32,541 nt of DNA from an uncultured Chitinophagales bacterium (GTDB lineage Bacteria; Bacteroidota; Bacteroidia; Chitinophagales; JAHDHT01). This document shows positions 12,113 through 28,809 of the stretch, piece after piece. The notes under the pieces are model-generated. The model saw only the letters and a list, made by a program, of their open reading frames with translations, had not been told where the DNA came from and made no database searches. Made by a program: the position numbers and the translations under genes. Location of the stretch: positions 1 through 32,541 of the forward strand of contig CALHDG010000072.1 in the NCBI GenBank assembly GCA_938023075.1. The letters run 5' to 3'. The first letter of the stretch is position 1. Every line of letters starts with the position of its first letter.

Positions 12113-13900
12113 ATGAGAAGCCGTAGTTTTATAAGCCTTATATCTTTTATGATATTAATAGCGATGTCAGTGATGTCTGCTCGGGCACAAAATTTACCGC
12201 CAGTAAGTTTAGATTGTGTCAACAATATTAATAATGGCGTAATTGAAATTACCTGGAGTGCCAATACTGCAGATTGCAATAGCTTCGAAAACTATGGAGT
12301 ATATGTATCGCCGAACCGTTTAAGCGGATTTACTTTAGTTGCCGAAATAGATGATGAGAATAATACCACTTTTGTTGATTCTGTATCGGCTAACTTAAGT
12401 AACACTTTTTTATTTTATTATGTGCTTAGAAATTGTGATGGAGAAACCTCAGTACATTCAGATACTTTGGATAATGAACGCCCTAAATTTCCTATAGTAG
12501 ATTACATAACCGTTGTTGGAGATGAGGTTGAAATAAAATGGCAAGAAAGTGTTTCGCCAGAAGCCGATGCTTATATTGTTCATTACTTTACCGATAATGG
12601 TTTTGTAAGAATAGATACGGTAAATAACAGCAATTTGATATACACGCATACCGCTGCGAAGCCGGCTGAACAAACAGAACGGTACACCATTTCTACCATT
12701 GATGCTTGTAAAGAAGAAGGGGCGCAAAACACCTTAGTATCAGAAACAATTTATTTGCAAGCCCTTAGCACCTCTTGTAGCAATGATGTGTTTTTAAATT
12801 GGACGCCTTATCAGGGTTGGATAAATGGGCTGGACTCCTATGAAATATATGTTTCATATAACGGGGATGCTTTTAGTGTTATTGATACGGTAGATAACGA
12901 TGTAGATCGATATAATTTTTCCAATACCCGGCAAAATATTACTGAATTGTGTGTGCAGGTAAAAGCTTTGCGAGCAGGCGATTTGGCAGAATCTAACTCC
13001 AATACCTCTTGTGTAGACTTAACAGCTTCTAGCTCAAACAACCCAGAATATCTTTACATAAGAAACCTCACCATTTTAGATGATGGAAGTATACAAATAG
13101 AATATTATATAGATACTTCGGTAAATATTGAAACGGTAAGGTATTTTAGTGGATCGTCGGTAGACGATTTAAGCGTGATAGAGACCGAGTTAGTTGGCAA
13201 TAATTTTGGTTCTTTTAATGCTTTTAATGATAGGCTTTCTGATAGTAGAAATCGTATTTTAACCTATCAAGTAGAAGTAGAAGATAGTTGTGGTACGCGC
13301 TACGGATCAAAATTTGCGCGCACCATTCATTTAACCGGTAAGCCCGATGGTGCCAACACCAATTATTTGTTTTGGACGGGCTATGGCATTCATCATGGAA
13401 CGGTAAATGGGTATACGGTTTACCGGCAAGAATTAGATGGTACGTTTGTAGAAGTTGGCAACACCATTGGCGATATGGTTCAGTTTAGTGAAGATGTGCA
13501 ATTTTTGCAACCCAATGAAAATGGAGAAATCTGTTACCGCGTTGAAGCCGATTATAATATTGATTTTCCATTGTTGCCATCCGAACGCTTAACTTCCTTA
13601 TCTAATGTGTTTTGTATTCCTCAACCCGGCAGAATTTTGGCTCCCAATGCCTTTGCACCAAACGGTGTCAATTCTGTTTTTAAACCGGTTACAACTAATA
13701 TTGATCCGTCAAACTATAAAATGGTAATTATGAACCGATGGGGTGGGGTGGTGTTTGAGAGCAACAACCCGGAAGATGGATGGGATGGCACTTACCAAGG
13801 TAGAGATGCATTAGAAGGCGTTTATGCTTACTATTTTAGCTACTCCGGTTTTGATGGTGAATTGCGTGAGAAAAAAGGAACCGTGTTGTTGTTGCGCTAA
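12113..13900 (+). CDS. Secreted protein with gliding-motility-associated (type B) T9SS sorting domain
   Basis: 595 residues. A signal peptide (ending MSARAQ, about 26) is followed by four or five fibronectin III-like beta modules (for example EITWSANTADCNSFENYGVY, EIKWQESVSPEADAYIVHY and FLNWTPYQGW), then a C-terminal domain of about 85 residues beginning APNAFAPNGVNSVFKP with MNRWGGVVFES and GWDGTYQGRDALEGVYAYY. This is the CHU_C/type B sorting domain used by type IX secretion, so the protein should be surface-exposed or released. It lies 4 bases behind the M16 pair. Translational coupling suggests co-expression; whether the peptidases act on it is not shown. Confidence 0.9.
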   Translation: MRSRSFISLISFMILIAMSVMSARAQNLPPVSLDCVNNINNGVIEITWSANTADCNSFENYGVYVSPNRLSGFTLVAEIDDENNTTFVDSVSANLSNTFLFYYVLRNCDGETSVHSDTLDNERPKFPIVDYITVVGDEVEIKWQESVSPEADAYIVHYFTDNGFVRIDTVNNSNLIYTHTAAKPAEQTERYTISTIDACKEEGAQNTLVSETIYLQALSTSCSNDVFLNWTPYQGWINGLDSYEIYVSYNGDAFSVIDTVDNDVDRYNFSNTRQNITELCVQVKALRAGDLAESNSNTSCVDLTASSSNNPEYLYIRNLTILDDGSIQIEYYIDTSVNIETVRYFSGSSVDDLSVIETELVGNNFGSFNAFNDRLSDSRNRILTYQVEVEDSCGTRYGSKFARTIHLTGKPDGANTNYLFWTGYGIHHGTVNGYTVYRQELDGTFVEVGNTIGDMVQFSEDVQFLQPNENGEICYRVEADYNIDFPLLPSERLTSLSNVFCIPQPGRILAPNAFAPNGVNSVFKPVTTNIDPSNYKMVIMNRWGGVVFESNNPEDGWDGTYQGRDALEGVYAYYFSYSGFDGELREKKGTVLLLR

Positions 13901-15334: not shown

Positions 15335-15454
15335 ATTTTTTTAGAAGCGAAACAATCAACAACTAAAAAACATTGGTCCCGCTTTCCGCTCAAATGCTAT
15401 TGCAAGGCTTCAAAATCTGCGCTGCAAAATAGCATAACCGCTGCAATCGGGGCT
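15335..15454 (+). repeat. Family A hairpin element, copy 2
   Basis: Box 1 is atttttttagaagcgaaa (15335-15352). The left flank ggtcccgctttccgctcaa starts at 15375, the stem is ATGCTATT (15394-15401) with AATAGCAT (15428-15435), and the right flank aaccgctgcaatcggggct ends at 15454. The CCCG and CGGG in the flanks can also pair. The core is 80 bases long, the same as copy 1. Confidence 0.87.
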
Positions 15455-15505
15455 AGTTTGCAAACGTTGGTTTTTGTGGAAAGTTATCTGAATGCTCATC
15501 TTATC

Positions 15506-15736
15506 TTACCAAACAATTAATTTTTGTTGCAAACTTTGTTGATTGTTGCTGGTTTTAAAAATATACATACCTGCTTGAAAATTAGACAAATCTAAATAAG
15601 CGGTAGGCGTTTCGCTGATTTGTGTTTGCAATAAAACGCCGTTCATCGAATACAGTTCAATGTCAACAGGCAACTCCCAATCATCTGGAAATTTTACATA
15701 AAACCATCCTTCACTTGGATTAGGAAAAAGGAAAAA
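15506..15736 (-). pseudogene. Orphaned type A T9SS sorting domain
   Basis: Directly after the TAA at 15739-15737 the same minus-strand frame stays open for 76 codons to a TAA at 15508-15506. It encodes FFLFPNPSEGWFYVKFPD..., then IELYSMNGVLLQTQ, LDLSNFQAGMYIFKTS and a Lys/Val-ending tail. This is a complete type A T9SS C-terminal sorting domain (NPSxGxxxV, YxxxG, LxxGxY). It belongs with the upstream 790-residue protein and is separated from it by one stop codon. It has no start of its own. Confidence 0.85.
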
Positions 15737-18109
15737 TTAGTCAATTGCAACAACTTCGTCTGATAAACCATCAATCCATTCCGCCAAATATTTCAAGTAT
15801 TGTTTATCGTTTAAATTTCGAGCTAATGGAGGCATCCTATTTTCTTCTAAACTAGCATCGCGCACCCAAATTTCAGAAGCCTGGTGGTCGCCGGGCTTAA
15901 TTAATTGATGATTAGGATTGGAGGCAGAACTTTGGGTGTCGAAATTAAGGGTGTTCTGAAATTGTAAGGGTATTTCGTAACGCAAATCCATATTAACATC
16001 TGCCACGCCACCCAATTGATGACAAGGAGCACAATTGGAATCCATGTAAGAGCGTATTCTTAATTCTAAATCAGCATTTTCGTCATCTATTGCAAAAGCT
16101 CGATTAAAATTATCGGCGTTAGTAATAGTGCTGCTTAAAACCCCTTTATCACTTAAGTACTCCAATTGATTTTTATGAATGGCTAAATCAGGGTAAAAAA
16201 GTTCACTATTCAACTGATGAGTTTTCACCCCCAAAACATAATTGGCATTTTTATTATGGCAACTTAAGCATTGATCGCGGCTCGGGAAAACCCAATGCTG
16301 TTTAAAAGAAAGGTTGCCATTTTCCATAATGTCAAACTCTTTGGAATCTTGGGTACGTAACAATGTAGCATCAGTGCCGTCTTCATTCCATTTGTACGTT
16401 AAGCCATAGCTTTGCTGGTTTTTACCCACTATAAAAAACCGGGTCTCCAATTTCGAGGTAGCCGAAGATGGGGCTTCACTTAATGGCAATTCAAAATGTT
16501 TAATGAAAACGGTTCCTTCAGGAAAAATCCAATTATCGTTGCTGCTAAATTGAATTTTTTGTTGATCGGGAATTGCCATCCAACGGTATTTAATCGCCCT
16601 GTCCGACCAAAGCGGCGCAATTACCTGATAGGGAATAACTCCATCGGCAACTTGCAAATTAATTAGATCGCTAAACGCACCTAAATCAGATAAACGATTA
16701 GGTGGGTCGGGTTGCACTTTACGTTGTTGTAACTTTAAAAGTTTGCCAGGTTTGGTATGATCTTCTCCAATTACAGTTAACAATACTTCTCCATTAGCTA
16801 AAATATGTACCCCACTAATACCAGGTTTTTCAGGCAGATCAATATTAAGATTGGTCAAATTGGGTATTAAAATTTCGTAGTCGGGTTTCGTACTTTTATT
16901 ATAGGTTAAAGCCATTAATTTGCTTTTCCCAAAATCGGCAAACAGATATTTGCCATAAAGGTTAACAAAAACCGACCCTCGATAAACTCCGCCACCAATA
17001 ATGGCATTATCAATCGAACGGTCATATTCAAAAAGTGGAGGCTTTTCGTTACCGATTAATTCTATTGGTTTTTCGTGTACTTCCGATTTTAAGGTTCCTT
17101 CAATATAGGGCCACTGTAAGTTATCTCCTTTTTTAACTTGACTAATTTCTTCACGTACTTCCGAGCCAACATCCAATACCCAAATGTTATCCTCTATGTT
17201 GTCATAAGAAGTGGAATAGGGGCTGCGAATTCCAATTGCGAAAAACTCTTCTAAAGTTGAACCATCCCCACTCAACCATGGATTATCGTTGGGTATGCTG
17301 TAGCCTTGACTAAAGGTTTTGCCCCAGCCTTGCTGAGGTGTAGCATTGGCTTTGGGTTGTCTATTAATGGGATGACTTTTGTTCGGATCATTATCTATAT
17401 CAATTCGAATAACACCACTAAATAAGCCACCGTCTATACGTTGTGTAGATTCTTCTTGATGTTCTGCTGCGCCTTCATCACCTAATGAAACATATAAAAA
17501 TCCATCAGGACCAAAAAACATAGCCCCACCATTATGCCAGCTACTCCGGTCATACTGCTGAAATAAAATTTCTTCACTATCAGCATCAAAAGTTTGCGTG
17601 TCAGTATTCCACGAAAATTTTGATAGACGATTAAAACCTAATTCTGACCATTCATCTGGTTGAGGTTTAGTTCTGTAAAAAATAAAAATAAGTTGTTTGT
17701 CCAGATTTTCCTCATCGCCAAATTTAGGATGCAATGCCATACCAACTGTACCAGCTTCACCTAATTTAAATGAACGGTCTTTAATATCTAAGATAAGCTT
17801 TTGAGTTTGATTGGCAAAGTTGACCTGCCAGACTTCTCCCAATTTACTCAACACTAAGTTATCATCACTATTCGGGAAAGGTAAAATACGTAAAGGCGAA
17901 GCAATTTTGATCTCCTCAAAACTATCATCTACCGTCCAAGAACCGACTTCTCCTGGTGGCGTTTCAGAAAAAACACCATTTAGATATGGTTGAATATTAG
18001 TAGTGTTTTTGGGTATGTTTAGCGATGCCATACCAAAACAAACCAAAGCAATCCATACAACAAATTTAGTGTTGGTATTCATGTTGGAAAGATATTGAAT
18101 TATTTTCAA
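15737..18109 (-). CDS. Glucose/sorbosone dehydrogenase-like propeller with two CxxCH motifs, sorting domain lost
   Basis: 790 residues. A signal peptide lies at about 10-30, with M10 an alternative start. Residues about 55-465 form a beta-propeller like soluble PQQ-dependent sugar dehydrogenases (GTVGMALHPKF, WHNGGAMFFGPDGFLYVSLGD, GIRSPYS, GGGVYRG). Residues about 470-785 resemble the bacterial family TIGR03806, with CLSCH at 614-618 and CAPCH at 693-697, both able to hold c-type heme. The predicted role is oxidation of a sugar or similar substrate outside the inner membrane, with electrons passed to heme. A TAA ends the frame right before a complete type A T9SS sorting domain, so the product may stay in the periplasm instead of reaching the surface. 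Confidence 0.82.
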   Translation of the reverse strand: MKIIQYLSNMNTNTKFVVWIALVCFGMASLNIPKNTTNIQPYLNGVFSETPPGEVGSWTVDDSFEEIKIASPLRILPFPNSDDNLVLSKLGEVWQVNFANQTQKLILDIKDRSFKLGEAGTVGMALHPKFGDEENLDKQLIFIFYRTKPQPDEWSELGFNRLSKFSWNTDTQTFDADSEEILFQQYDRSSWHNGGAMFFGPDGFLYVSLGDEGAAEHQEESTQRIDGGLFSGVIRIDIDNDPNKSHPINRQPKANATPQQGWGKTFSQGYSIPNDNPWLSGDGSTLEEFFAIGIRSPYSTSYDNIEDNIWVLDVGSEVREEISQVKKGDNLQWPYIEGTLKSEVHEKPIELIGNEKPPLFEYDRSIDNAIIGGGVYRGSVFVNLYGKYLFADFGKSKLMALTYNKSTKPDYEILIPNLTNLNIDLPEKPGISGVHILANGEVLLTVIGEDHTKPGKLLKLQQRKVQPDPPNRLSDLGAFSDLINLQVADGVIPYQVIAPLWSDRAIKYRWMAIPDQQKIQFSSNDNWIFPEGTVFIKHFELPLSEAPSSATSKLETRFFIVGKNQQSYGLTYKWNEDGTDATLLRTQDSKEFDIMENGNLSFKQHWVFPSRDQCLSCHNKNANYVLGVKTHQLNSELFYPDLAIHKNQLEYLSDKGVLSSTITNADNFNRAFAIDDENADLELRIRSYMDSNCAPCHQLGGVADVNMDLRYEIPLQFQNTLNFDTQSSASNPNHQLIKPGDHQASEIWVRDASLEENRMPPLARNLNDKQYLKYLAEWIDGLSDEVVAID

Positions 18110-20885: not shown

Positions 20886-20975
20886 TTTGCCCCTAATTTT
20901 TTGCAAAAATACCCAAAGTTTGCCCCTAATTTTTTGCAAAAACACCCAAAGTTTGCCCCTAATTTTTTGCAAAAA
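20886..20975. repeat. Tandem 33-bp repeats, 2.7 copies
   Basis: Units at 20886-20918 and 20919-20951 differ by one base; a partial third runs 20952-20975. Each unit is tttgcccctaattttttgca followed by aaaa-acccaaag, and contains the near-palindrome tttttgcaaaaa. They lie 120-210 bases upstream of the ATPase start. They could be binding sites, or replication slippage without function. Confidence 0.85.
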
Positions 20976-21096
20976 TTGTACATTTATAGCTTTAAAAATC
21001 ACAAAAATATCGTCATACTCTCTTAAAAATTTGATTATTAATGTTTTAAATAATTAAAAAACAATAACTAATAATTCGTAAATTCTATTGTAAATA

Positions 21097-24075: not shown

Positions 24076-25806
24076 GTGTGCTTCGCTTACTATCTTATTT
24101 TAAATACCATAATTTTTTTGCCTGCTTATGTCATCAATCGAAAAAATACTACTTTTTTTCCCATACAAATTGTCACCGCTCCAGTAAGCCTTAAATCAAT
24201 CATCGCCAATGTTATCCGGCGGTATAATTTTGATATGTTTCGGTGTTGTGCAGATTTTGCCTTATTGGTTATCATCATCTATTTAACAAAAGCTATCTTA
24301 CCAAAACCAATAGCACTTATTGTAATGCTGAGCTATTTAGTTTTTGCCATCATCCATCAAACTTACTATCATAGTATTAAATTTATTTACAATACCGAGC
24401 CTTTATTAATAAACGATTGGATTTTGATAAGACGAGGTTTATCTATTGTTTTTCAGGCTTACCGCTTCTATTTAATAATAGGTATATTTGTTTTGGCTTT
24501 GCTTGGGTATGGCTTGTATCTATTATGTGCTGCATTTTTAAATACTGTGTATTTTCAAAAAGAAATATCCATATTTTGGTTAGTACTTCTTTTAGTTATT
24601 TTTCTATTGGGTTTATATTCTGAAATTCGATATAAAAATTTTAAAAGCATTTATGGCGTGTTGTGTTTTATATTACCTACGTATAAATTTATTCAAAACA
24701 TAAAAAATTCATTTGCAGAGCGAGAAAATTTACAAGCCATTAAAAGCATTAATTTTGCAAGCTGCAACAAAGTCAATTCATTAAACTTAAATATAAAAAA
24801 GAACATAATTTTTATTGCAGTAGAATCGTACGGAGCAGTTTTTTATGATGAAAACCGGTTTACGAATACAGCAAATTTTATTCATCTTATTGAAAACCAA
24901 TTAAACAAAAAAGGCTGGCATATGGCTTCTCAATACAGTACTTCGCCTATTATGGGTGGTGCCTCATGGTTGTCGTATTCTACTTTATTAAAGGGTATAC
25001 ATATTGCATCAGAAAGTATGTATAGTTATTTATTTAAAGATGATGATCATTTAGCCTATGAACCATTGATGCAAAAACTACAACACACGGGTTATGATAC
25101 TTGGTTCATCAGTTCTATTGGTGGTTTCGAAAAAATGAAAATACCTTGGCAAAAAACCTTACAATTTTTAGGTATTGAAAAAGTGATTAAATATAAAGAC
25201 TTAGCCTATAACGGAAAGCACTTTGGTTTTGGTCCTTCGCCACCCGATCAATATAGTTTGAATAAAGCGTATCAGATCATAAAAGAGCAATCTAACAACA
25301 AACCCTTTGCCGCTTTTTGGTTAAGTTTAAATTCTCATTACCCTTGGGATAGCCCTGAGCAGATTGTAGCAGATTGGAACGAGTTAAACGGGCTGAATGA
25401 ACCCTACGGTATCTCTAAAAATTTATTGAACTCGATCAAATATGAAAAGGCAATGCAGTACCAATTGAATTATCTTAGCGACTTTATTTTGAACAATGGT
25501 ACACCAAATGATATTTTTATACTAGTAGGCGATCATCAACCTTTTAACATTGGAGAAATTGATAACCGGCTTACCCCCATACATATTATTTGTAAAGATG
25601 AACACCTTACTAACAACTTTAAAGCTTTCGATTTTGTGCAGGGTATAACTCCAAAACATAATGAAGAAAAATACATCAACCATGCTGGTGTACAGTCCAT
25701 GCTAATTCAGGTTTTAAATACTTGTTATGGAAGTGTTTTGGAAAAAACAACTTACTATCCTAATGGAATTAATAGGAACACCCGAATAATTCCTTCAATA
25801 ATTTAA
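24076..25806 (+). CDS. Membrane-bound sulfatase/phosphoglycerol-transferase-like enzyme
   Basis: 576 residues. Several membrane segments (about 5-20, 58-95, 130-155 and 165-183) precede an alkaline-phosphatase superfamily domain like LtaS and related envelope transferases. FIAVESYGAVF (246-256) provides the first metal-binding acid, GGASWLSYSTLLKG (294-307) is the expected nucleophile region, SLNSHYPW supplies a His, and VGDHQPFN the metal-binding Asp-His pair. The expected reaction is transfer or hydrolysis of a phospholipid head group or sulfate ester outside the inner membrane; the substrate is not predictable. The start is uncertain: GTG at 24076 is the earliest usable codon and leaves a short first segment. 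Confidence 0.78.
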   Translation: MCFAYYLILNTIIFLPAYVINRKNTTFFPIQIVTAPVSLKSIIANVIRRYNFDMFRCCADFALLVIIIYLTKAILPKPIALIVMLSYLVFAIIHQTYYHSIKFIYNTEPLLINDWILIRRGLSIVFQAYRFYLIIGIFVLALLGYGLYLLCAAFLNTVYFQKEISIFWLVLLLVIFLLGLYSEIRYKNFKSIYGVLCFILPTYKFIQNIKNSFAERENLQAIKSINFASCNKVNSLNLNIKKNIIFIAVESYGAVFYDENRFTNTANFIHLIENQLNKKGWHMASQYSTSPIMGGASWLSYSTLLKGIHIASESMYSYLFKDDDHLAYEPLMQKLQHTGYDTWFISSIGGFEKMKIPWQKTLQFLGIEKVIKYKDLAYNGKHFGFGPSPPDQYSLNKAYQIIKEQSNNKPFAAFWLSLNSHYPWDSPEQIVADWNELNGLNEPYGISKNLLNSIKYEKAMQYQLNYLSDFILNNGTPNDIFILVGDHQPFNIGEIDNRLTPIHIICKDEHLTNNFKAFDFVQGITPKHNEEKYINHAGVQSMLIQVLNTCYGSVLEKTTYYPNGINRNTRIIPSII

Positions 25807-26063
25807 AGCTTAACCAAGCTGCCATATTCTTACTAAACTTTGTTTACATTTATTCCAAAATTTAGGTTTTAATAAGTTGCTGATATACCTAAAACGATTG
25901 GGTTTTAAACTATTTCGTATATAACCTGCGCCTGTTTACCGGTTTTTCACAAAAGTAATACCGGCTTTTTTAGCACCCCAGCGAGCCATCAAACAATTAG
26001 GATATATAACAACGTTGGGCTTTGAAGCACCAACCAACAAAGCACTGCCGTCACCAACCTAAA

Positions 26064-26179
26064 CCCGATAGCAGTGGTTATGCCGTTTTGCAGCGGAGGC
26101 TTTGCAGCCGGGCAACGGCATTTGAACGGATAGCGGGACTACCCTCTCATTGAAATAGTCTGTTCGTTTTCAAAAAAAT
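26064..26179 (-). repeat. Family A hairpin element, copy 4
   Basis: In reverse orientation: aaacccgatagcagtggtt, then stem ATGCCGTT (26080-26087) with AACGGCAT (26114-26121), then tgaacggatagcgggact, and box 1 as ttcgttttcaaaaaaat (26163-26179). An inner GGCT/AGCC hairpin sits in the loop. It belongs to the duplicated metH upstream block. Confidence 0.85.
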
Positions 26180-26304
26180 CAAAAACCCAAAATTTAAAAA
26201 CTTTTGTGAGCAACTAACAATTTGTTACGGCAATCGTATAAAATTTTCTCAAGAAAAAACTACTGCTCAGTTACCTTTAAGGATTGCATAGAAAATAGAT
26301 TATC

Positions 26305-26402
26305 CTATTGTTGTGAAGCAGTTTTTTGATAAACCAGTGAAAACGCAGATTTAGTAAAACTAAAATTAGAATAGTTCCAGCGGAACGAAATCTTGGTAGA
26401 AT
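26305..26402 (+). mobile_element. Family B long-hairpin element, copy 3 (degenerate)
   Basis: gaagcagttttttgataaac, aaaacgcag, a central ATTTAG-TAAAA-CTAAAAT hairpin and ggaacgaaatcttggtaga follow the same order as the other two copies. The central stem again differs from theirs on both sides. Confidence 0.55.
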
Positions 26403-26557
26403 ATAAACACAACGAAAGCAAAGCTCCAGAGGAGCGATACTTGACTAAATAGGTGAACAAAAATATTTTATGATCTATATAAAGGAGGTATCGCTCCGCT
26501 GGAGCTATCAAACTACTTGCAATTTTTAGCTACCCAAATTTTACTCCGCCGGAGTAA
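26374..26557. repeat. Cluster of family E palindromes
   Basis: Short palindromes with variable centre: GTTCC-AGC-GGAAC (26374-26386), GCTCC-AGA-GGAGC (inside 26422-26440), GCTCC-GCT-GGAGC (inside 26488-26506) and ACTCC-GCC-GGAGT (inside 26541-26557). A further one, GCTCC-TCC-GGAGC, is at 23870-23889. The sites 26422-26440 and 26488-26506 are also inverted copies of each other with one mismatch. Confidence 0.75.
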
Positions 26558-26697
26558 GGCAATTGTAAAAATTACAGCTACTAAATATTTGAAATTGACT
26601 ATTATAACAAAATAAAAGGGTGAAACATTAGTTTTACATTTTTATGTAATTGCCATAACATTTGCGCCACTTTGCAGTAAATTTCAAATGCTTTGCG

Positions 26698-26920
26698 TAT
26701 CTTCTCAGTCATTTTTATCAAAAATTCATACTTCAACTCCTGAAGTGTTCAGCGGATAGTTTGAGTAGGTCTTTTTGTTATCTAAGTCACTGGTTTCGGG
26801 CTAAACAGAAATTCCGGGATTATTCATTTAACAGAAAACATATAAACTATGGTGCTTTTGCAAAAGTTAGTTCAACAGCGTATTTTGGTTTTAGATGGGG
26901 CAATGGGTAGCCTTATTTAA
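26698..26920 (+). pseudogene. metH: Duplicated metH 5' end: leader plus 23 codons, dead
   Basis: From about 26680 the sequence follows the real metH upstream region. The promoter box is TATCTTCT here (26698-26705) against TATCTTTG at 31359-31366. Then come about 80 leader bases identical to the real copy (from atcaaaaattc to tttcggg), and an ATG at 26849 whose frame matches MetH up to a TAA at 26918-26920 where metH has CAA. Homology stops within about 10 bases after that. Of the coding differences before the stop, four are silent and one changes Met2 to Val. Confidence 0.88.
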
Positions 26921-26921
26921 G

Positions 26922-27338
26922 GTTGATTTGGATGATCTGGCTTCCTTAGAGGCATGTGCTATTGCAATCCCCTGTGTTACAATTACTGATAACAGCGTTA
27001 GTTAAGGTACACCAGAAGCACTATGTGTGCTTCGTGGTCAAAATAATGGAATTGTAGGCAGCACTCCTTTCTCTCAAATTGGCTCCTTTGATACCGGTAC
27101 GAGCTGCTTTTATGTAGAAAATTCATATACTTTTACAGCTCTTTTTGAACCACAAAATATTTCACCGCCAACTCAAATACAAGTGCCTAACAATCCCTCC
27201 CATTTTAATAAAGAAGTAGACATAACGATTATTCCAAAACAAGCTGCTGAAACTAAGAAAACAAAAGCCTCCGGTTTTGTAAAGAAATGGGCTGGTGTGC
27301 TTTCTGAAAAGGGTGTTGAAGATGTTCTTTTAAAATAA
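26922..27338 (+). pseudogene. Broken frame of unknown origin with an antitoxin-like tail
   Basis: One frame encodes VDLDDLASLEACAIAIPCVT, meets a TAA at 27003-27005, and goes on to 27338 (GTG at 27027 is the first later start). The middle part (ALCVLRGQNNGIVGSTPFSQ) is not recognised. The last 50 residues (PNNPSHFNKEVDITIIPKQ, then GFVKKWAGVLSEKGVEDV) resemble the C-terminal half of small Bacteroidota antitoxins that end in FVxKWxGxL. It is probably a composite of fragments. Confidence 0.35.
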
Positions 27339-27360
27339 TCTTAATTAATTACTATCGGTT

Positions 27361-27432
27361 TATAATTTAGTTAGCCAATCAAAAAGACTTGAAAGCTAAA
27401 GTACACAAGTTGAAAAGACTAGCTGTAGAGGA
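27361..27432 (+). repeat. 72-bp direct repeat, left copy
   Basis: tataatttagttagccaatc and the following bases to 27432 recur at 28571-28643 with a few changes and one extra base. The pair brackets the toxin-antitoxin cluster. Confidence 0.85.
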
Positions 27433-27524
27433 GACAAAACCGCATTCAAATCAACTATTGATTTTGTGCTACACCAAATAAAAGATTAACTTTGGGCAAC
27501 AATAACAATAAAGATAAACCAGAA

Positions 27525-27764
27525 ATGGATGAAAATTTAATGAAATGAATTACGCTTAATCCTGATGTTTGTTTTGGTAAACCAAAAGTAAGAAATATGA
27601 GATATCCAGTTGAAATGATTTTAGACTTACTCTCTGCCGGAATGACTAATGGGGAAATATTAGGAGATTACCCAGCTTTGGAAGAGGCTGATATTAAAGC
27701 TTGTTTATTATTTGCATCCAAACTGGTTAAAGTCAATTCAATTAGTAAAGTGATTACTGCTTAA
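27525..27764 (+). pseudogene. DUF433 antitoxin, interrupted by a stop
   Basis: From the ATG at 27525 the frame meets TGA at 27546-27548, then stays open for 71 codons: ITLNPDVCFGKPKVRNMRYP, VEMILDLLSAGMTNGEILGD, YPALEEADIKACLLFA. This is the DUF433 fold (VapB-like antitoxin of PIN-type toxins) with the usual CxGKPxVxxxRxPVxxIL core changed slightly. An internal ATG could still give a shortened protein. Its stop overlaps the start of a truncated toxin gene. Confidence 0.75.
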
Positions 27765-27808
27765 TGAAATTTATTGCTGATGCAAACGCCCTAATGTTGT
27801 TTGCCTAA
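27764..27808 (+). pseudogene. DUF5615 toxin start, truncated
   Basis: The ATG at 27764 shares its A with the TAA of the DUF433 frame, the usual coupling in these modules. It encodes MKFIADANA, the family's N-terminal (F/L)xxDxN strand, and then stops after 14 codons. The rest of the PIN-like domain is missing. Confidence 0.6.
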
Positions 27809-27870
27809 TATTTTTTTGAGAATATTGAAGTTAAGGAAAAATAGATTATTTTTGTACATAAAGTTAATAT

Positions 27871-28110
27871 ATGCTTGAAAATTTCAAATACTTGTCATCT
27901 GACGCCGCTATACTAAACGGGAAACCTTGTATTAAAGGTAGTCGAATTAGTGTTTCGTTAATTTTAGAGTGGTTGGCAAGTGGAGCAAGTCTTCACGAAA
28001 TCCATAAAGCATATCCACATCTATCTATTGAAAGTTTGGAGGAGGCTATTCGATATGCTGCGCTTCTCGGTAAAAATGAGATCTTAATTAATGTAGCTTT
28101 AGCCAAATGA
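27871..28110 (+). CDS. DUF433 antitoxin, intact
   Basis: 79 residues with a complete DUF433 domain: AILNGKPCIKGSRISVSLIL, EWLASGASLHEIHKAYPHLS, IESLEEAIRYAA. Members pair with PIN-like DUF5615 toxins and act as antidote and DNA-binding repressor. The stop overlaps the ATG of a DUF5615 gene (28107) that carries a nonsense codon, so the antitoxin is the only whole member of the two modules here. It differs clearly in sequence from the broken DUF433 frame 100 bases upstream, so the two modules are separate arrivals or old duplicates. Confidence 0.85.
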   Translation: MLENFKYLSSDAAILNGKPCIKGSRISVSLILEWLASGASLHEIHKAYPHLSIESLEEAIRYAALLGKNEILINVALAK

Positions 28111-28487
28111 TTTTAAAGGATTATTCTTTATTAACTGACGAGAATATCCACTCCAAAATCGTTGAGCATCTTAGGTCGAAAAACTTTGCTGTTTTTGATA
28201 TAAAAGAACAAAATTTACAAGGCATTAGTGATAAATAAATTCTTCATTTATCGTATCAGCAAAAAAGTGTTATTGTTACTCAGGATAGTGATTTTGGAAC
28301 GCTTGTCTTTACTGAAAAAACTGATTTTGTTGGCATAATATATCTACGACTAGGCCATTTTCAACCTTCTTTCCACATCGAAACTGTAGGTGCAATTATT
28401 AAAGAAAATGTAGTTATCAGCAAACCCTTTATTATTGTTGCAGAAAAAAAAGAACTTAATATAAAGATAAGAGTTCGTGAATTTTAG
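28107..28487 (+). pseudogene. DUF5615 PIN-like toxin with a nonsense codon
   Basis: It overlaps the antitoxin stop by 4 bases. The frame reads MILKDYSLLTDENIHSKIVE, HLRSKNFAVFDIKEQ, then TAA at 28236-28238 (codon 44), and continues to 28487 with VIVTQDSDFGTLVF and GIIYLRLGH. The acidic residues of the PIN-like site (D11, E12 and the DxDF motif) are kept, but the last lies beyond the stop. GAA to TAA is the simplest change (GISDK-E-ILHLSY). The toxin should be inactive. Confidence 0.82.
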
Positions 28488-28809
28488 AAGAGTAAAAAAA
28501 TAGCTTGACAAACGGACAAGCAAAATACGACTTTGATAACTCTCTTAAAGTAATGTTCATTAGTGCAGTGTATAATTTAGTTAGCCAATCAAAAAGACTT
28601 GAAAGCTAAAGTGCCACAAGTTGAAAAGACTTGCGGTAGTGGAGTGGCTCGCTACGTACTTTTCACTAAAGTGTCTCGCTTGTCTAACATGGGGGTATTT
28701 AAATCCCTTTGCTTAGGTGCAGTAATATTTGAAAAAAAGAAGTATTAAAATTTGTTAAAACAACCTAAGTGCCAATATATATATATATACTACCAAAAAA
28801 TAATCATCT
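28488..28809. other. 322-bp intergenic region
   Basis: It contains the right copy of the 72-bp repeat and, at 28775-28789, an uninterrupted (AT)7.5 tract about 20 bases before the ATG of the next gene. No promoter box matches TAnnTTTG well. Confidence 0.5.
28571..28643 (+). repeat. 72-bp direct repeat, right copy
   Basis: The partner of 27361-27432. Recombination between the two copies would delete the whole 1.2-kb toxin-antitoxin cluster and leave one copy. Confidence 0.85.

Follow-up and report, generated by a model that had tools for sequence, protein, structure and literature searches.

The locus described here raises the question of why a single stop codon stands between a dehydrogenase and a sorting domain for the type A branch of T9SS cargo. 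A first, sequence-only reading had offered three answers: a recent nonsense mutation, rare readthrough giving one gene two destinations, or an error in the sequence. The window (the whole stretch of DNA that was analysed, 32,541 nucleotides) carries the following features at this site.

15737..18082, minus strand: truncated gene of 781 codons plus TAA, with a signal-peptide-like N-terminus (by eye), a GSDH domain and an SO2930-like diheme cytochrome c domain containing CLSCH and CAPCH
15737..15739, minus strand: premature stop codon TAA in the linker between the cytochrome and sorting domains, ten residues after the conserved WID at the end of the cytochrome domain; N, K and T codons in relatives
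15506..15736, minus strand: complete type A sorting domain of T9SS cargo (76 codons plus TAA), which shares the reading frame of the gene and is severed from the gene by the stop; its first own ATG is at codon 31

Two parts of one reading frame

On the minus strand the frame reads ...LAEWIDGLSDEVVAID, meets TAA at 15739-15737, continues with FFLFPNPSEGWFYVKF...QQKLIVW and ends at a second TAA at 15508-15506. This re-reading agrees with the coordinates and stop position (15737-15739) first reported, and the 76 codons said to be open past the stop are open in the same frame. The TAA is the sole interruption, with no other in-frame stop inside the truncated gene. Because the frame is the same on either side of it, an indel error is an unlikely cause.

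The likely start of the gene is the ATG at 18082; the mechanical open reading frame begins upstream at TTG 18109. The stretch after this ATG resembles a signal peptide, judged by eye only. A profile search places the glucose/sorbosone dehydrogenase domain in PF07995 (92.2 bits; gathering cut-off, 25). The second domain covers positions 2-313 of the 314 in TIGR03806, the SO2930 family diheme cytochrome, at 226.8 bits against a cut-off of 313.3. With a score below the family cut-off, it is best described as SO2930-like only. Its two haem motifs of the CxxCH form, CLSCH and CAPCH, are both intact. In the mechanical open reading frame (790 residues) the TIGR03806 match runs to residue 781, nine residues short of the stop, which puts the cut within the linker and leaves the enzyme whole. 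No further intact copy of the fused gene was found in the host genome, where the partial matches are a GSDH-only one in contig C44, at the contig edge, and a cytochrome-only one in C12.

Beyond the stop, the 76 residues match TIGR04183 with 50.4 bits (cut-off 23; profile positions 1-71 of 72; E 1.6e-13) and PF18962 with 49.1 bits (cut-off 27; positions 1-75 of 75). These full-length matches bear out the original description of a complete type A sorting domain, and the TIGR04183 match rules out a frame left open by chance. The host genome encodes the export machinery, with SprA at 2299 bits and a PorU-type sortase at 1266 bits, and its type A sorting domains number at least 150. The locus thus shares with known T9SS type A cargo (Por_Secre_tail, TIGR04183/PF18962) a full-length tail above the curated cut-offs and an organism with SprA and sortase. 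It differs in that a stop codon parts the tail from the cargo, so that the tail lies outside the protein as sequenced. The domain does not form the C-terminus of a translated secreted protein, as the in-frame TAA precedes it and no ATG follows until codon 31.

We also considered whether the sorting domain had been copied from elsewhere in the genome. This was rejected, since a whole-genome DNA search found other copies only for the stretch from about 15486 downwards. About 50 bases after the sorting domain lies a Flavo-1 RNA, part of which recurs as a dispersed repeat, in about 40 copies genome-wide. A few kilobases from the broken type A cargo gene is an intact protein with a different T9SS signal domain, and an intergenic tandem array lies elsewhere in the window.

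15371-15458, minus strand: Flavo-1 RNA (Rfam RF01705; 44.1 bits, gathering 42)
12113-13900, plus strand: intact protein with a CHU_C T9SS signal domain (PF13585)
20886-20976: tandem array with a 33-base unit, 2.8 copies, 96% matches

Ancestry and age of the stop

Relatives were sought in about 100 related, about 395 class-level and about 395 phylum-level genomes, together with a scan of contigs from 84,980 species. Three close relatives were found, all in draft genomes: L046 (a Saprospiraceae MAG), L047 (a Lewinella MAG) and L010/L048 (a Saprospiraceae MAG). Each is one uninterrupted gene with a terminal sorting domain, and the body is about 50-53% identical to that of the window. These GSDH plus SO2930-like diheme cytochrome fusions, from Saprospiraceae and related Bacteroidota, share with our locus the domain order, this level of identity and a gapless junction. 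They differ in that all of them run into the sorting domain without a stop. At the junction, GLSDEVVAID*FFLFPNP in the window aligns with GMPNPAESIENFITFPNP in L046, QLGVEDGEKAKNLVFPNP in L047 and NLVPLEIESTTFTLYPNP in L048. Between the conserved WI(D/G) and FPNP/YPNP these four sequences have no gap, and the TAA of the window faces AAT (N) in L046, AAG (K) in L047 and ACT (T) in L048.

The sequence-only reading had asked for orthologues with a sense codon at this site, and had named orthologues uniformly lacking the sorting domain as the result that would count against it. All three close relatives have the sense codon and all three carry the domain. Intact relatives, a sense codon at the site and a gapless alignment across the stop are the pattern of a nonsense-truncated gene, so we read the stop as a nonsense change in a gene for T9SS cargo. 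The uninterrupted relatives likewise indicate that the sorting domain is ancestral and the stop derived. Farther out, the two more remote fusions followed to their ends (L039 and L051) both have a C-terminal sorting domain, and the remaining distant fusions have long uninterrupted frames. Relatives in Verrucomicrobia, outside the T9SS phylum, have other tails. No relatives were found in viral contigs, and the one other genome of the same family has no fused relative.

How old could the stop be? The severed domain ranks 37th of the 63 sorting domains in about 0.99 Mb of the host genome; it scores like the working sorting domains of that genome. Its identity to the domains of the relatives is 25-29%, similar to the 17-32% that the relatives share among themselves. 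When 5% neutral substitution was simulated, the mean score fell from 53 to 42 bits and the chance of a new stop was 50%. At 10% substitution, only 1% of copies were still open with at least 45 bits. The rank and the simulation both uphold the earlier remark that the domain shows no decay. The tail is still full-scoring and open, and thus the stop is either recent or not real. If real, it would date, under this model, to less than about 5-10% of neutral change.

Other interrupted genes and the quality of the consensus

A stop that is not real would be a base-call or consensus error, or the product of a chimeric strain consensus, and the living organism would then carry a sense codon and make ordinary T9SS cargo. 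We consider this possible but on the unlikely side. The assembly is a draft of 288 contigs, and the stop is a single observation in one genome. Several other genes of the assembly also have a single in-frame stop replacing one residue. When about 0.99 Mb of the host genome was surveyed, with contigs from C81 onwards picked in part for their sorting domains, such genes were found in C35, probably in C14, in C82 and, within the window, in a DUF5615 gene. Two further cases lie outside the survey thresholds, one within the sorting domain of a hydrolase itself (C271) and one in a T9SS protein (C89).

L105 (G000:C35), 1635: HNH-like gene (by eye), apparent single in-frame TAA replacing about one residue
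L084 (G000:C14), 18966: MoaD-like gene (by eye), apparent single in-frame TAA replacing about one residue; probable
L112 (G000:C82), about 3913: T9SS cargo, a repeat protein with a sorting domain, TAA between repeat domains
L128 (G000:C271), about 14856: T9SS cargo (hydrolase), TGA inside the sorting domain
L119 (G000:C89), about 10422: T9SS cargo, TGA before YHLPVTF
Window, 28092-28484, plus strand: DUF5615 PIN-like gene, split by an in-frame TAA at 28236-28238
Window, 26895-27335, plus strand: candidate in-frame TAA at 27003-27005, with a coding-like stretch of no known family on either side

The pieces of the DUF5615 gene match model positions 3-38 and 40-94, so its stop replaces exactly one residue. 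Just before it are two DUF433 genes (27549-27761 and 27868-28107), an arrangement that resembles an antitoxin-toxin pair with the second gene broken. The region 25806-28804 has no open frame of at least 120 codons and looks like decayed genes. Counting all three candidates (15737, 27003 and 28236), one 32 kb contig holds three putative in-frame stops, compared with a handful across the remaining 0.96 Mb of the sample. This mild cluster could reflect a locally poor consensus, and it keeps that explanation alive as a rival.

Two comparisons argue against error as the general cause. Four candidate frameshift splits turned up, which is no excess, and one or more of these resembles an ordinary adjacent gene; an abundance of indel errors is thus not visible in the assembly. 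Candidate in-frame splits occur at a comparable rate in the control genome G002, and such a rate does not have to point to error. In control stretches, each of 0.4 Mb, one raw candidate was seen in G046 and four in G002, of which perhaps one in G002 looks genuine; all of these are small numbers. An orphan sorting domain in G002 was rejected as an in-frame split, being a decayed remnant. The host rate of single-stop genes is roughly like that of the control genome and not clearly abnormal. An enrichment of such genes among T9SS cargo specifically is not established, given that contigs C81 and later were partly picked for their sorting domains. Genome-wide recoding of one stop codon was rejected as well, as both TAA and TGA are seen in the interrupted genes, and TAA is the stop at the ends of normal genes.

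Readthrough, relocation and the fate of the product

The same open frame and intact sorting domain beyond the stop would also be expected if the stop were read through, whether programmed or tolerated, with a minority of the enzyme sent to the surface and the rest left in the periplasm. The evidence makes this very improbable. The stop is conserved in no relative, and three have sense codons in its place. Its context is TAA followed by T, and a T after TAA makes for a strong terminator. The RNA on either side of the stop has no better fold than its shuffles (z -0.67). The other single-stop genes mix TAA with TGA, have T, G or A as the next base and show no common motif. The more specific proposal that low-level TAA readthrough gives a major periplasmic and a minor surface pool, with the destination set by the efficiency of termination, is if anything more doubtful still. 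Rare readthrough with two destinations, as first suggested, is therefore not borne out: the stop is unconserved, stands before a T, has no unusual fold and resembles stops in unrelated genes. Recent nonsense mutation, by comparison, gained support from the sense codon and intact domain of the relatives and from the lack of decay.

We conclude that the locus is probably a gene for T9SS cargo in which one nonsense codon has recently arisen ahead of the sorting tag. As the relatives show, the ancestor was one protein with a Sec signal, a PQQ-type sugar dehydrogenase domain, a diheme cytochrome c domain and a type A sorting domain. A nonsense codon would then have been gained recently in the linker between enzyme and sorting domain, either as a fixed allele or as a variant within the population. 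The present allele would yield an enzyme with whole catalytic and haem parts, lacking the tag that T9SS recognises. From known T9SS biology, and by analogy with gingipains, this enzyme would stay in the periplasm and not reach the surface. The downstream sorting domain would now be an untranslated remnant in the DNA, too young to have decayed.

When the sorting domain of a gingipain loses its last residues, the cargo is reported to accumulate in the periplasm (PMC4804311). The likeness to our locus is that cargo whose sorting domain lacks its end is known to stay in the periplasm. Those mutants differ in being laboratory constructs in another species; here the truncation is natural, or apparently so. 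A literature search for T9SS with a premature stop codon found no paper in the library that it covered.

Could the shorter enzyme have been selected as a periplasmic form? The catalytic and haem parts are untouched and the cut falls just beyond the cytochrome domain, as such an adaptive relocation would need. However, we found no evidence of selection, the stop occurs in one sequence only and unrelated accessory genes hold similar stops, all of which leaves this explanation highly improbable.

With a recent nonsense codon as the probable explanation, the locus is ordinary in kind and neatly placed. If the stop is not real, the case shows again that reads should be consulted before a mechanism is built on a single stop in a draft assembly. 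If it is real, it would be a clean natural case in which T9SS cargo has lost its export tag at a stroke and kept its enzyme whole, and a plausible first step in shifting a surface enzyme to the periplasm.
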